Assembly: GCA_902537615.1 (NCBI GenBank)
Contig: CACBBU010000007.1
Location: 1 to 64,000 of the forward strand
DNA from: an uncultured Alphaproteobacteria bacterium
GTDB lineage: Bacteria > Pseudomonadota > Alphaproteobacteria > Methylaequorales > Methylaequoraceae
Reading direction: 5' to 3'
Length of the DNA stretch: 64,000 nt
The notes below the pieces were generated by a model. The model searched no databases, was not told the DNA's origin, and saw nothing but the letters and a program-made list of their open reading frames with translations. Shown here piece after piece: positions 11,881 through 43,314 of this stretch. The position numbers and the translations under genes were made by a program. Position 1 is the stretch's first letter. Each line of letters opens with the position of its first letter.

Positions 11881-12614
11881 AGTATCTTGTATATCTAAAA
11901 GAGTTGAGAAACAGATTATTATTTAGTTTTTCATTCATGTTTCTTTGCTTTTTGTTTTTTTTCTTTAATGTTAGTTTAGTTATTGAAGCTCTCACTAACC
12001 CTTTGTATGAGCTTCTAAATAATCAAGAAAATAAAAGAATGATTTTTACCGGTCTCCCTGAGGTTTTCGTTTCTAACCTCAAAGTATCTTTTTTTGTTGC
12101 TTTTTTATTTTCTTTACCAATTTTTATCATTCAATTAATTCTTTTTACCTCTCCAGCTTTATATAAGAAGGAAAAAAAAGTATTTGTTTTGGTGTCTATT
12201 ATGTCAATTATATTTTTCTTTCTGGGGATATTATTTGCATATTTCGTTTTAATACCTATGATATGGTCTTTCTTTATATCTTATGAAAGTTTTGTAGACG
12301 GCTCCTTGCCAGTACAACTGGAATCAAGATATTCAGAATATATGAAGCTAACAATGTTTCTGCTTCTTGCTAGCGGTTTATCATTTGAATTTCCAATTAT
12401 AATAATTTTTCTTACAAAAATAGGTATTTTTAATGAACTTTTCCTTAAAAAAAATAGAAAATTCTTCCTTATTGGTATTTTAATTTTCTCTGCTTTATTC
12501 ACTCCTCCCGATATAATTTCACAGATAGGGATTGCTATTCCGCTGATAATCTTTTATGAATTTTCAATATTGTTCATCAAGTTTTTTTTTAAAAAGAAAG
12601 TAAAAAATGCATGA
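11877..12614 (+). CDS. tatC: Sec-independent translocase TatC
   Basis: This polytopic subunit recognises twin-arginine signal peptides. The 245 residues contain about six hydrophobic segments and the TatC landmarks: an N-terminal YLKELRNRLLFS (equivalent of HLxELRxRL), the periplasmic-loop FTSPALYKKEKK segment, and FEFPIIIIFLTKIG. The order tatA-tatB-tatC with overlapping starts indicates one transcript supplying the whole translocase. The 3' end overlaps serS by eight bases. Confidence 0.96.
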   Translation: MKYLVYLKELRNRLLFSFSFMFLCFLFFFFNVSLVIEALTNPLYELLNNQENKRMIFTGLPEVFVSNLKVSFFVAFLFSLPIFIIQLILFTSPALYKKEKKVFVLVSIMSIIFFFLGILFAYFVLIPMIWSFFISYESFVDGSLPVQLESRYSEYMKLTMFLLLASGLSFEFPIIIIFLTKIGIFNELFLKKNRKFFLIGILIFSALFTPPDIISQIGIAIPLIIFYEFSILFIKFFFKKKVKNA

Positions 12615-13881
12615 TATTAAATTTATAAAAGATAATAGTTCACTTTTTGATCAAATATTAAAAAAAAGAAATATTTCGTCTTCTTCAAGAGAAATACTAG
12701 TTTTACATCAAGATTATTTAGATCATTTAAAAAACACTCAAAGCTTACAAGAAAAGAAAAATTCTTTATCAAAAATGTTTTCTCCACAGTTAAGTCTTAA
12801 AGACTTAGAAAAAATTAAAAATGATGTTGCTAAAATTAAAACTGAATTAGAAGAATCAAAAAAACAAACTGATGAAAAAAAAATAAAAATAAACAAAATT
12901 CTGCTTGAAATCCCTAATTTAGTTGATGATAGGGTTCCAGTTGGTAAGTCTGAGAATGATAACAAAATTATTAAAGAAGTTGGTACAATAGACAAACCAG
13001 AGTTTGAAGTGAAAAATCATGTAGAAATTTTAGAAAGGCATAATTTATTAGATTATAATAAAGCATCTAAACTTTCTGGTAGTAGGTTTTCAGTTTTAAG
13101 ATCAAGTCTAGCTACTTTACATCGAGCCTTAGTAAATTTTATGATAGACACGAATGTGATAAACTTTCAATATGAAGAATGTGTAGTTCCAGAATTAGTA
13201 AAAAGTGATTGTTTAATTGGCACAGGACAATTACCAAAATTTAATGAGGATTTATTTAAAGCTGATTTTAATGATTTATGGTTAATACCTACTGCCGAAG
13301 TACCTTTGACCAATTTTCATAGAGAAGAAATTATTGACTCAACTACACTCCCACTTCGCTATACATCTTTTACAAATTGTTTTCGTTCAGAAGCAGGTGC
13401 TGCAGGCAAAGATACAAAAGGATTAATGCGAGAGCATCAATTTGGCAAAGTTGAATTAGTTTCTATAACTGAGCCTAATAAATCAATGGTTGAAATGGAA
13501 AGAATGACTGGATGTGTTGAAACGATTTTAAGTAAACTAAATATTCCTTATCGTTTGGTTGAGTTATGTACTGGAGATTTAGGCTTTTCGTCCTCCTACA
13601 CAATTGATATAGAAGTTTGGATGCCTGGACAAAAAAAATTTAGAGAAGTTTCAAGTTGTTCAAACTGCAAGGATTTTCAAGCTAGAAGAATGAAAATGAG
13701 AGTTAAAAATCATAGTACCGGAGAGATTTATTATCCTCACACATTGAATGGTTCCTCAATAGCAGTTGGAAGAATTTTAATAAGTATAGTAGAAAACTAT
13801 CAAAAAGAAGATGGTACTATTTCAGTACCTGAAATTTTAAAAAATTACATGAAAGGGATAACAAGTATTGGTAATAAATGA
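12607..13881 (+). CDS. serS: Seryl-tRNA synthetase
   Basis: This class II synthetase of 424 residues charges tRNA-Ser. It has an N-terminal antiparallel coiled coil (about residues 30-105) that grips the long variable arm. Class II motifs follow: motif 2 FRSEAGAAGKDTKGLMREHQF and motif 3 near LNGSSIAVGRILISIVENYQ, each recognisable in shorter pieces. Length is normal. It lies between tatC and pcm with small overlaps on both sides. The surE gene that usually sits between serS and pcm in alphaproteobacteria is absent here. Confidence 0.97.
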   Translation: MHDIKFIKDNSSLFDQILKKRNISSSSREILVLHQDYLDHLKNTQSLQEKKNSLSKMFSPQLSLKDLEKIKNDVAKIKTELEESKKQTDEKKIKINKILLEIPNLVDDRVPVGKSENDNKIIKEVGTIDKPEFEVKNHVEILERHNLLDYNKASKLSGSRFSVLRSSLATLHRALVNFMIDTNVINFQYEECVVPELVKSDCLIGTGQLPKFNEDLFKADFNDLWLIPTAEVPLTNFHREEIIDSTTLPLRYTSFTNCFRSEAGAAGKDTKGLMREHQFGKVELVSITEPNKSMVEMERMTGCVETILSKLNIPYRLVELCTGDLGFSSSYTIDIEVWMPGQKKFREVSSCSNCKDFQARRMKMRVKNHSTGEIYYPHTLNGSSIAVGRILISIVENYQKEDGTISVPEILKNYMKGITSIGNK

Positions 13882-14522
13882 AAAAAATAAAAAGATTTGG
13901 AAAGTTTGATTTACTCCTTGATCTAAAAAAACAAGGAATATCAGATATAAATGTCCTTAATGTAATTGAGGAGGTTGATAGATCATTGTTTATTGATACT
14001 AATTTAAAAGAAAAGTCTAATCTTAACGTCGCACTTCCAATTGAGTGTGGTCAAACAATTTCTCAACCTTTAATTGTGGCTCATATGACACAAATACTTG
14101 AAATTGATAAAAGAATGAGAATTTTGGAGATAGGAACAGGAAGCGGTTATCAATCATGTGTATTATCAAAACTATCCAGATTTGTTTATACTATTGAAAG
14201 ACATAATATATTGCTAAAGAGAGCAAAAAACCTTCTTCAAAGTCTTAATATTAATAATGTTTTTTTTAAACATGCTGACGGCGGTTTGGGATGGTCGGAT
14301 CAAGCTCCTTTTGACAGAATAATTGTTACAGCTAGTGCACCAGAAATTCCTAAAAAGCTTCTTAGTCAACTTGTAGATGAGGGTATTATGATCATACCAG
14401 TTGGTGAAGAGAATGATAATCAAGTTTTAAAAAAAATAATAAAAAAAGGTGATAGAATTATTGTAAAAAATATAATGAACGTTCGATTTGTTCCATTACT
14501 AGAAGGTAAAGTAGAGTATTAA
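13878..14522 (+). CDS. pcm: Protein-L-isoaspartate O-methyltransferase
   Basis: It repairs isoaspartyl damage in proteins using S-adenosylmethionine. The protein has 214 residues. The family's active-site segment GQTISQPLIVAHMTQ is present at about 55-69, followed by the SAM-binding motif ILEIGTGSGYQ and the downstream DRIIVTASAPEIP. The ATG overlaps the serS stop by four bases. Its stop is three bases before nlpD. Confidence 0.95.
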   Translation: MKKIKRFGKFDLLLDLKKQGISDINVLNVIEEVDRSLFIDTNLKEKSNLNVALPIECGQTISQPLIVAHMTQILEIDKRMRILEIGTGSGYQSCVLSKLSRFVYTIERHNILLKRAKNLLQSLNINNVFFKHADGGLGWSDQAPFDRIIVTASAPEIPKKLLSQLVDEGIMIIPVGEENDNQVLKKIIKKGDRIIVKNIMNVRFVPLLEGKVEY

Positions 14523-35762: not shown

Positions 35763-35942
35763 ATGTCAAATAGAAATTACATAATTTTATTTCTTTTGTT
35801 GCTAACTATTATGTTATTTGATTTTTTTCAGTTAAATAGTTTTAAAAATAATGTTGCTGAACGTTTAGATCTTATTAGCTCTCAGATTGGAGATTTAGAT
35901 GAGGATATTCATACATTGGAGGATTCAATTAACAAAGATTAA
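35763..35942 (+). CDS. Small single-pass membrane protein (59 aa), hypothetical
   Basis: This is an open frame of 59 codons. A hydrophobic stretch ([17 protein letters not shown], residues 6-22) is followed by a polar tail with heptad-like leucine and isoleucine spacing (ERLDLISSQIGDLDEDIHTLEDS), suggesting a bitopic protein with a short coiled coil. No strong Shine-Dalgarno is visible. It lies about 90 bases before pqqA but a functional link is not shown. Confidence 0.5.
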   Translation: MSNRNYIILFLLLLTIMLFDFFQLNSFKNNVAERLDLISSQIGDLDEDIHTLEDSINKD

Positions 35943-36035
35943 TATTAACGTAATATGAATATCACACTCAGATTTGATTAAGATAATTCTGATACTTTGG
36001 GGACAATTATATTAATTTTTATTAAGGAGTAAATA

Positions 36036-36113
36036 ATGGCTTGGACAAAACCAATGATTTCTGAAATCTCTGTTGGTCTTGAAATCAACTCTTATGCTTG
36101 CGCTGAGAAGTAG
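36036..36113 (+). CDS. pqqA: Coenzyme PQQ precursor peptide PqqA
   Basis: This 25-residue peptide starts MAWTKPMISEISVGLEI and continues NSYACAEK. It matches the PqqA family: a W-x-x-P opening, a short amphipathic middle, and the glutamate and tyrosine that become PQQ, here Glu16 and Tyr20, with the required E-x3-Y spacing. AAGGAG lies seven bases before the ATG, and a rho-independent terminator follows after about 30 bases, so it is a free-standing short transcript. The processing genes pqqB, C, D and E are not in this window. A similar PqqA-like RiPP precursor cannot be excluded, but PqqA is by far the best reading. Confidence 0.85.
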   Translation: MAWTKPMISEISVGLEINSYACAEK

Positions 36114-36141: not shown

Positions 36142-36175
36142 AAAAGCCCAGCTAATTGGTTGGGCTTTTTTTTTT
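36142..36175 (+). terminator. Rho-independent terminator after pqqA
   Basis: An inverted repeat (AAAAGCCCA ... TGGGCTTTT, nine pairs) around a ten-base loop is followed by an unbroken T-run to 36175. It closes the short pqqA transcript and separates it from the open frame at 36181. Confidence 0.88.
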
Positions 36176-41292: not shown

Positions 41293-43314
41293 ATGTTGAA
41301 AATACTATTTGGTGACCTAAGACATGGAACAATTGGTTATCATTCCGCTACTATGCCTCTTGCAGTTAGTTTTCTCGCTACCTATACTGAGTCGTTTTTA
41401 AAGAATAAAGTAAAAACAAAAATTTTTATTGAACCTGAGAAATTAATTTCAAGTATTCAAAAAGACAAGCCTGATGTAATTGCGTTATCTAATTATGTTT
41501 GGAATTGTGACCTTGGAAAATATATTTTTGAGGTAGCGAAGGAATTAAACCATAATGTTATCTCAATTGCTGGAGGTCCGGAATTTCCAAGAGATGAGAT
41601 TGAAGGGGCTGATTATCTTAGGGAAAGAAATGAGATTGACTTTTATGTTTATCAAGAAGGTGAAATAGCCTTTCTAAATCTTGTAAAATTAATTATTAAA
41701 TCAAAAAAAATTGAAGATTTAAAATCTAATCCCATTAAGGGAGTAAAATTTATTAACCCCAATAATAAAGAGTTAATAACTGGAATTCCCCATGAAAGAC
41801 TTAAAGAGTTAGATAACATTCCTTCGCCATATCTTTCTGGTAAGATGGATCAATATCTTGATGGTAGGTTTCAACCATTTATTGAATCCGCTAGAGGTTG
41901 TCCTTATGCATGTACTTTCTGTGAAGCAGCGTCATCCTGGTATAATAAGGTTAATAGTTTTACTGTAGAAAGGGTTAAAAAAGAACTTCTTTATATTGCA
42001 AAGAGAATGAAAAATTTTCCGGACGTCCCACTTGCAATTGCAGACTCAAACTTTGGAATGCTTAAACGAGATGAAGAAATCTCTGATTATATTGGTATTT
42101 TACAAGACAAATATAACTGGCCTAATTATTTTAGTGTTTCAACTGGAAAATCCCAACACGAGAGAATAATTAAGGTTGCCAAAAAACTTAAAAATAAATT
42201 AGTAGTTTCACTTTCTGTTCAATCGTTGAACGAAAAGACTTTAAGTCAGATAAAGAGAAAAAACTTAGGAGATGGAAACTTTGAAAGAGTCTATGACGCG
42301 CTCAGAGAAATTGGAATACATTCATACTCTGATATTATTTTTCCAATGCCTTATGAAACAAAAGAAACCTTTTTTGAAGGAATAAGAAAATTATCTCATG
42401 CAAATATAGACAGATTTATTCCTTATACGACGATGATGCTCAAAGGAACAGAATTTGCCTCTTCAAGTAATAGAAAAAAATTTGGTATGAAAACTAAATT
42501 CAGAGTGTTGCCTAATCAATTTGGTGAATATAATAAAAAAAAAATAATTGAGACAGAGGAAGTTTGTATAGAAACAAATACAATGTCCTTTTCAGAGTAT
42601 TTAGAGTGCAGAGGTTTTTCATTTGTAATAAAAGTTTTTAGTGAAGTGCAATTTGACGTAATGGTCCGTTTATTAAGAAACTTTAAGGTTGATCCTTTTG
42701 ATTTTTTTGTAACTGTTTGGAAAAAAATTCAAAACAAATCGTTAAATATTTCAAAAGCATATTATGACTTTATAGATGAAACAAAATCAGAATTATTTGA
42801 TACAAAAGAGTCTTGTCAAAAATTCTATGAAAAAGAGGAAAATTATAGGGATCTTCTAGAGGGATTAACTGGAAATAATGTCATGAGGAAGAGCTATGCT
42901 AATGTACTAATTGATCATAATGTAGAGGCTATCAACCTTGGTTTTAATTGTTTAAAAGAAATCTTAAAGCCTAGGCTTGATAAAGAAGCTATTTCAGCTA
43001 TTGAGGATGTAAGAGTATGGACATTAGTTACGAGAAATATTGATGATGTTTTTAAGATAAAAAAAAATGCATTTGATATCAAAACACTTAACCTAAATTT
43101 TGATGTCCCTTCTTGGTATAATAGTACAGTAGATTCTGGAAATATCCTAACCTTTAAAAAAAAGGCGATGGGAAAGGTAACATATAATACTGAAAAAATA
43201 TTATCTGTAGTTAACTCTACTAAAAGAATGTATAGTCAAAATATCTATCACTGGGTTCCTAAAGCCATTGAAAAAACCAGTTTAAGAATTTTTTGGGGAA
43301 ATTTTAATAGATAA
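41293..43314 (+). CDS. B12-binding-domain radical SAM enzyme
   Basis: This is a 673-residue enzyme. The N-terminal half (to about 135) is a Rossmann-like cobalamin-binding domain with DVIALSNYVWNCDLGKYIF and SIAGGPEFPRDEIEGADY. The radical SAM cluster motif is Cys203, Cys207 and Cys210 in ARGCPYACTFCEAA. A TIM-barrel core and a long C-terminal region of unknown type follow. Members of this class methylate unreactive carbons or rearrange skeletons, but the substrate here is unknown. It stands alone, 253 bases before an ABC exporter. It is not a PqqE homologue, because PqqE has a SPASM cysteine domain that is absent here. Confidence 0.85.
   Translation: MLKILFGDLRHGTIGYHSATMPLAVSFLATYTESFLKNKVKTKIFIEPEKLISSIQKDKPDVIALSNYVWNCDLGKYIFEVAKELNHNVISIAGGPEFPRDEIEGADYLRERNEIDFYVYQEGEIAFLNLVKLIIKSKKIEDLKSNPIKGVKFINPNNKELITGIPHERLKELDNIPSPYLSGKMDQYLDGRFQPFIESARGCPYACTFCEAASSWYNKVNSFTVERVKKELLYIAKRMKNFPDVPLAIADSNFGMLKRDEEISDYIGILQDKYNWPNYFSVSTGKSQHERIIKVAKKLKNKLVVSLSVQSLNEKTLSQIKRKNLGDGNFERVYDALREIGIHSYSDIIFPMPYETKETFFEGIRKLSHANIDRFIPYTTMMLKGTEFASSSNRKKFGMKTKFRVLPNQFGEYNKKKIIETEEVCIETNTMSFSEYLECRGFSFVIKVFSEVQFDVMVRLLRNFKVDPFDFFVTVWKKIQNKSLNISKAYYDFIDETKSELFDTKESCQKFYEKEENYRDLLEGLTGNNVMRKSYANVLIDHNVEAINLGFNCLKEILKPRLDKEAISAIEDVRVWTLVTRNIDDVFKIKKNAFDIKTLNLNFDVPSWYNSTVDSGNILTFKKKAMGKVTYNTEKILSVVNSTKRMYSQNIYHWVPKAIEKTSLRIFWGNFNR

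Follow-up and report, generated by a model that had tools for sequence, protein, structure and literature searches.

The gene for the PQQ precursor peptide, pqqA, is already known from methylotrophs both in multiple copies and as a free-standing gene. Members of the Methylophilaceae carry three to 12 copies of pqqA but only a single set of the remaining pqq genes (PMC4109929). In Methylosinus trichosporium OB3b, a stand-alone, unannotated pqqA is expressed ~30-80 times above pqqB, pqqC and pqqE, at ~11,900-13,900 units compared with ~160-370 for pqqB, pqqC/D and pqqE (PMC3615186). The latter case is a published precedent for the suggestion, made in the first-pass annotation of the locus described here, that gene finders can easily overlook so short a unit.

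Here, we focus on a pqqA gene in a window of 64,000 nucleotides, by which we mean the whole stretch of DNA that was analysed. The gene encodes the peptide MAWTKPMISEISVGLEINSYACAEK, and its features are collected in Table 1. Judged by its sequence, it is a true PqqA gene in a small transcription unit of its own. The peptide exceeds the cut-offs of two PqqA models, with 36.7 bits (E 2.6e-9; cut-off 20) against the equivalog TIGR02107 and 30.8 bits (E 2.9e-7; cut-off 21.1) against PF08042, and none of 14 control genomes gave a match. Glu16 and Tyr20, in E-x3-Y spacing, are invariant across 54 copies from the family, and a ribosome site of the GGAG type is retained in nearly all family copies. 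The terminator folds with a minimum free energy of -16.9 kcal/mol (z -4.85), a stability equalled by none of 200 shuffles, and the terminator scan returned one structure where 0.2 were expected. Hence the reading frame, AAGGAG site, terminator and E-x3-Y pair on which the first-pass annotation had based its reading of a PqqA-type precursor are all confirmed, apart from the terminator stem, which has 12 pairs and not nine. That annotation made no mention of the promoter box at 35944-35982.

A sigma-70 consensus scan of the pqqA region gave a result no better than shuffles and lends no support to the possible -10 region, and an Rfam search of the same region returned sub-threshold matches only. 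Upstream lies a 59-codon open reading frame (35763-35942), apparently for a small protein anchored in the membrane. It stops 2 bp short of the pqqA box, and the two relatives from the genus have reading frames of 60-62 residues in the same position. As no terminator was seen in the stretch between this small reading frame and pqqA, read-through transcription into pqqA is possible.

Table 1. Features of the window pqqA gene and examples of the leader hairpin found at operonic copies
Feature	Position	Strand	Basis
pqqA, PQQ precursor peptide, 25 aa	36036..36113	+	PF08042 and TIGR02107 above cut-off; ATG to TAG
Shine-Dalgarno AAGGAG	36024..36029	+	sequence; 6-nt spacer to ATG
Intrinsic terminator, 12-pair stem and T run	36142..36173 (stem 36142-36169)	+	folding energy compared with shuffles
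Conserved pqqA promoter box ATTAAC-N5-ATGAAT-N7-TCAG-N6-TTAAG	35944..35982 (core 35955-35981)	+	pattern search
Possible -10 region TGATACT	35990..35996	+	suggested by a conserved T/A-rich element in aligned upstream regions
Leader hairpin, examples	L008 14833-15016; operonic copies in L043-L081	L008 minus	folding

The window belongs to a metagenome-assembled genome (MAG) of 1.23 Mb in 46 contigs, which is 79% complete. A search of this assembly found the identical 25-residue peptide again on contig C15, as the first gene of pqqABCDE, with pqqB, pqqC, pqqD and pqqE all above equivalog cut-offs; the genome has two pqqA genes and one pqqE. Facing the operon are genes for a PQQ alcohol dehydrogenase (667 bits), a XoxJ-like binding protein and a methanol-metabolism-related cytochrome c, the last with a score below that family's own cut-off. 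The dehydrogenase carries a DYD motif, read from the sequence, which is typical of lanthanide XoxF enzymes. With both pqqABCDE and xoxF found, the genome therefore holds the core PQQ pathway and a PQQ user. The earlier proposal that the organism makes PQQ agrees with this gene content. Neither of the two findings named as refuting it, a genome lacking pqqD/E homologues and a peptide not conserved in close relatives, was made, as pqqB, pqqC, pqqD and pqqE are all present and the peptide is strongly conserved in relatives. The description of the gene as an orphan has to be given up in view of the second copy heading the operon on C15, and a precursor peptide lacking maturation genes is ruled out by the same complete operon. 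The further idea of a related modified peptide instead of PQQ is unsupported, the window and operon peptides being identical.

The host is probably a marine alphaproteobacterium of the HIMB59/AEGEAN-169 type. In a named sequence collection, most matches to the same peptide pattern come from MAGs and single cells of marine alphaproteobacteria, among them 'HIMB59-MED-G10'. One sequence binned as Verrucomicrobia TMED40 (NHCT01000051.1; locus L093) also carries a HIMB59-type pqqA peptide, probably through a binning error.

Multiple pqqA copies are frequent across the family. The gene is present in 31 of 32 family genomes, with a total of 78 copies and one to five per genome (one copy in seven genomes, two in eight, three in ten, four in five and five in one), so that 24 of the 31 pqqA-bearing genomes have at least two; these counts are lower bounds, because the family genomes are incomplete. 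PqqE above cut-off never occurs more than once per genome. Of the 54 family copies analysed in detail, 34, about two thirds, stand alone, and the other 20 are located at the pqq operon. These copies are under purifying selection: residues 10-25 of the peptide are invariant among them, and their mean pairwise difference is 5.4 synonymous compared with 1.8 nonsynonymous changes, on ~15.7 and ~59.3 sites, respectively. The window and operon genes of the same genome differ at five coding positions, all of them synonymous. At one contig end (G022:C19; L062 1-530), two operonic-type pqqA genes stand in inverted orientation, and the upstream gene accompanies both of them; this arrangement may be an assembly chimera.

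Nearly every pqqA copy, operonic or stand-alone, is preceded by the promoter box ATGAAY-N7-TCAG-N6-TTAA or a close variant, located at about -73 to -84 in stand-alone and at -93 to -98 in operonic copies. The exact box has 72 matches in the 32 family genomes, where the reversed control pattern has none, and is present in 31 of them. Of these matches, 64 precede a pqqA recognised by the family model and two a pqqA truncated where its contig ends; one lies before a decayed cassette and five apparently lie inside coding sequence. The sensitivity of the box is circular, because it was first seen in pqqA upstream regions; its specificity is not, nor are the eight hold-out genomes that were not used for its derivation, in which 18 of 18 matches lie at pqqA. 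In the genome of the window, the exact box occurs at the two pqqA promoters only, one of them in the window, which has no other site of this kind, and a search allowing one mismatch added just two matches, no more than the control pattern.

The two kinds of copies differ in some details. The first repeat reads ATTAAC at most stand-alone copies and ATGAAT at operonic ones. Furthermore, operonic copies have a short leader hairpin just upstream of the ribosome site, which the stand-alone copies lack (mean z -1.8 versus +0.2). Its pairing is kept while its sequence varies (CTCAC/GTGAG, CTCGA/TCGAG, GCCC/GGGC). Operon copies also have a stable hairpin directly 3' of pqqA, which could limit read-through into pqqB and thereby raise PqqA over the enzyme, an excess to which stand-alone cassettes would add.

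A link to xoxF comes from the upstream half of the operonic box, in which TGAAT recurs after 11 bp. At all 11 readable loci, TGAAY-N6-TGAAY is found on the other strand between xoxF and a divergent gene for a SoxYZ-like carrier. TGAAY repeats in these intergenic regions comprise 18 sites at an 11-bp period and one at 14, and none was found at periods of 8-10, 12, 13, 15 or 16 bp in the 11 loci. In the genome of the window, the exact pattern ATGAAY-N5-ATGAAY occurs six times (control: 0), twice at xoxF and once each at the pqq operon, rpoH, rpoD and within a coding region. The TGAAY-N6-TGAAY sites just upstream of rpoH and rpoD (L167 and L168, 1501-1517; G000:C16:17980 and C18:8109) stand before genes that we named by eye from the sequence and presume to be these two.

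Because the direct repeats at the operonic pqqA and xoxF promoters are spaced by about one helical turn, as for OmpR/PhoB-type regulators, they suggest a regulator of the OmpR type. The assembled genome encodes four response regulators, two of which have an OmpR-type DNA-binding domain, namely PhoB (C5) and an unassigned protein on contig C13. We prefer the C13 protein as candidate regulator of the box. PhoB is less likely, since some HIMB59 genomes reportedly lack PhoR-PhoB (PMC10734472), whereas the box is nearly universal in the family.

Stand-alone copies form promoter-pqqA-terminator cassettes of ~240 bp, often at genus-specific sites. The window gene has a PpiC-like gene on one side and a DUF2784/COQ7 pair on the other, and each of the three genomes of the genus carries a pqqA at this site. 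One genome of another genus (G004) also has a pqqA within 1.5 kb of the PpiC gene, and in 18 other genomes none was found within the flank examined, which was at most 1.5 kb. Where two stand-alone copies in one genome are still similar (L067, L074 and L049), their alignment begins ~92-115 bp upstream of the start codon, at the promoter box, and extends to the terminator, ~135-146 bp downstream of it; similarity is lost beyond. The copied unit therefore seems to be the transcription unit, because flanks copied along with it should still align at the 94% identity of the L067 pair, although selection on the cassette could also contribute. In one genome (G006:C1; L145, from 50682), box and terminator of a cassette are recognisable and the reading frame is broken; this decayed sequence fits a birth and death of copies.

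We consider it very likely that the stand-alone cassette is an additional source of PqqA for the single PqqB-C-D-E machinery, co-regulated with xoxF. A complete cassette, with box, promoter, ribosome site, PqqA gene and terminator, would yield extra PqqA peptide and thereby feed the machinery encoded on the other contig. There, PqqD/PqqE would cross-link Glu16 and Tyr20, presumably also in the peptide of the window copy, and the cross-linked peptide would then be converted to PQQ for use by the XoxF alcohol dehydrogenase. The operon pqqA, its stand-alone counterparts and xoxF probably share a regulator that binds at the TGAAY repeats, and the extra copies would be beneficial through dosage. 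Each PQQ made uses up one PqqA peptide, whereas the Pqq enzymes act catalytically; therefore, the precursor must outnumber the enzymes, and selection should favour extra precursor genes rather than extra enzymes. We also propose, with slightly less than even confidence, a broader concept for HIMB59-type ocean bacteria, in which PQQ supply would be set by the number of ~240-bp cassettes copied to new sites as whole transcription units, and a single regulator on the TGAAY-repeat box would tie all copies to lanthanide-dependent xoxF.

The main competitor of additive supply is differential regulation, in which the stand-alone copy would be switched on in conditions other than those for the operon and serve as a backup or as a condition-specific source of the same peptide. 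We regard it as the less probable reading but as one with about a one-in-three claim, as the stand-alone copies have the variant first repeat and lack the leader hairpin, and the copies of Methylovorus MP688 reportedly differ in the stimuli that they respond to (Ge et al., 2015, as cited in PMC6520949). The core box, however, is common to both kinds of copies and specific to pqqA.

Two other explanations fare worse. Decayed cassettes such as that in G006:C1 and copy sites that differ between genera would be expected of non-functional duplication remnants which are retained only briefly, but at the window site none of the three genomes of the genus shows damage to gene, box or terminator, despite flanking DNA of only ~80% identity, and all changes there are synonymous, making a remnant very improbable. 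Even harder to sustain is the reading of the window peptide as substrate of another radical-SAM enzyme and precursor of a new RiPP. Weak matches to other radical-SAM/SPASM-like genes do exist in the genome, and a radical-SAM gene is located ~5 kb downstream (41293-43314); yet the peptide is letter-for-letter the operon PqqA, a real PqqE is encoded in the genome, and a consistent neighbour gene or local maturase of the stand-alone copies was sought and not found. On the identical peptide and the lack of a consistent local maturase, we rejected this alternative.

Several implications follow. A widespread marine lineage with small genomes appears able to make PQQ for XoxF, as indicated by its gene content. 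Several precursor genes are kept under one control element despite streamlining, and precursor supply is therefore a plausible limiting step. The box predicts pqqA genes missed by annotation and narrows the candidate regulators of the XoxF/PQQ system to a few. The part of the HIMB59/AEGEAN-169 literature covered mentions neither PQQ nor methanol nor Xox, and we found no report of a shared box joining all pqqA copies to xoxF, or of cassette structure and dispersal in a streamlined ocean lineage, in a literature search in which subscription journals were thinly represented.

Among described systems, M. trichosporium OB3b resembles the present case as an alphaproteobacterium, there with a PQQ-dependent methanol dehydrogenase, whose small free-standing pqqA lies away from pqqBCDE and was missed by annotation; in contrast to the situation here, where an operonic pqqA exists too, the stand-alone gene is the only pqqA described (PMC3615186). 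Beijerinckiaceae bacterium RH AL1 is likewise a lanthanide/XoxF alphaproteobacterium with multi-copy pqqA; it has three pqqA genes, and copies respond to lanthanide supply, while the portion of that study covered here describes neither promoter elements nor a cassette structure (PMC10848612). Methylophilaceae (PMC4109929) and Methylovorus MP688 (Ge et al., 2015, as cited in PMC6520949) likewise combine several pqqA genes in one genome with a single set of the remaining pqq genes. They differ from the lineage described here, which consists of Alphaproteobacteria with streamlined marine genomes, in which the peptides encoded by most copies are identical or nearly so and one promoter box is common to the copies and to xoxF.
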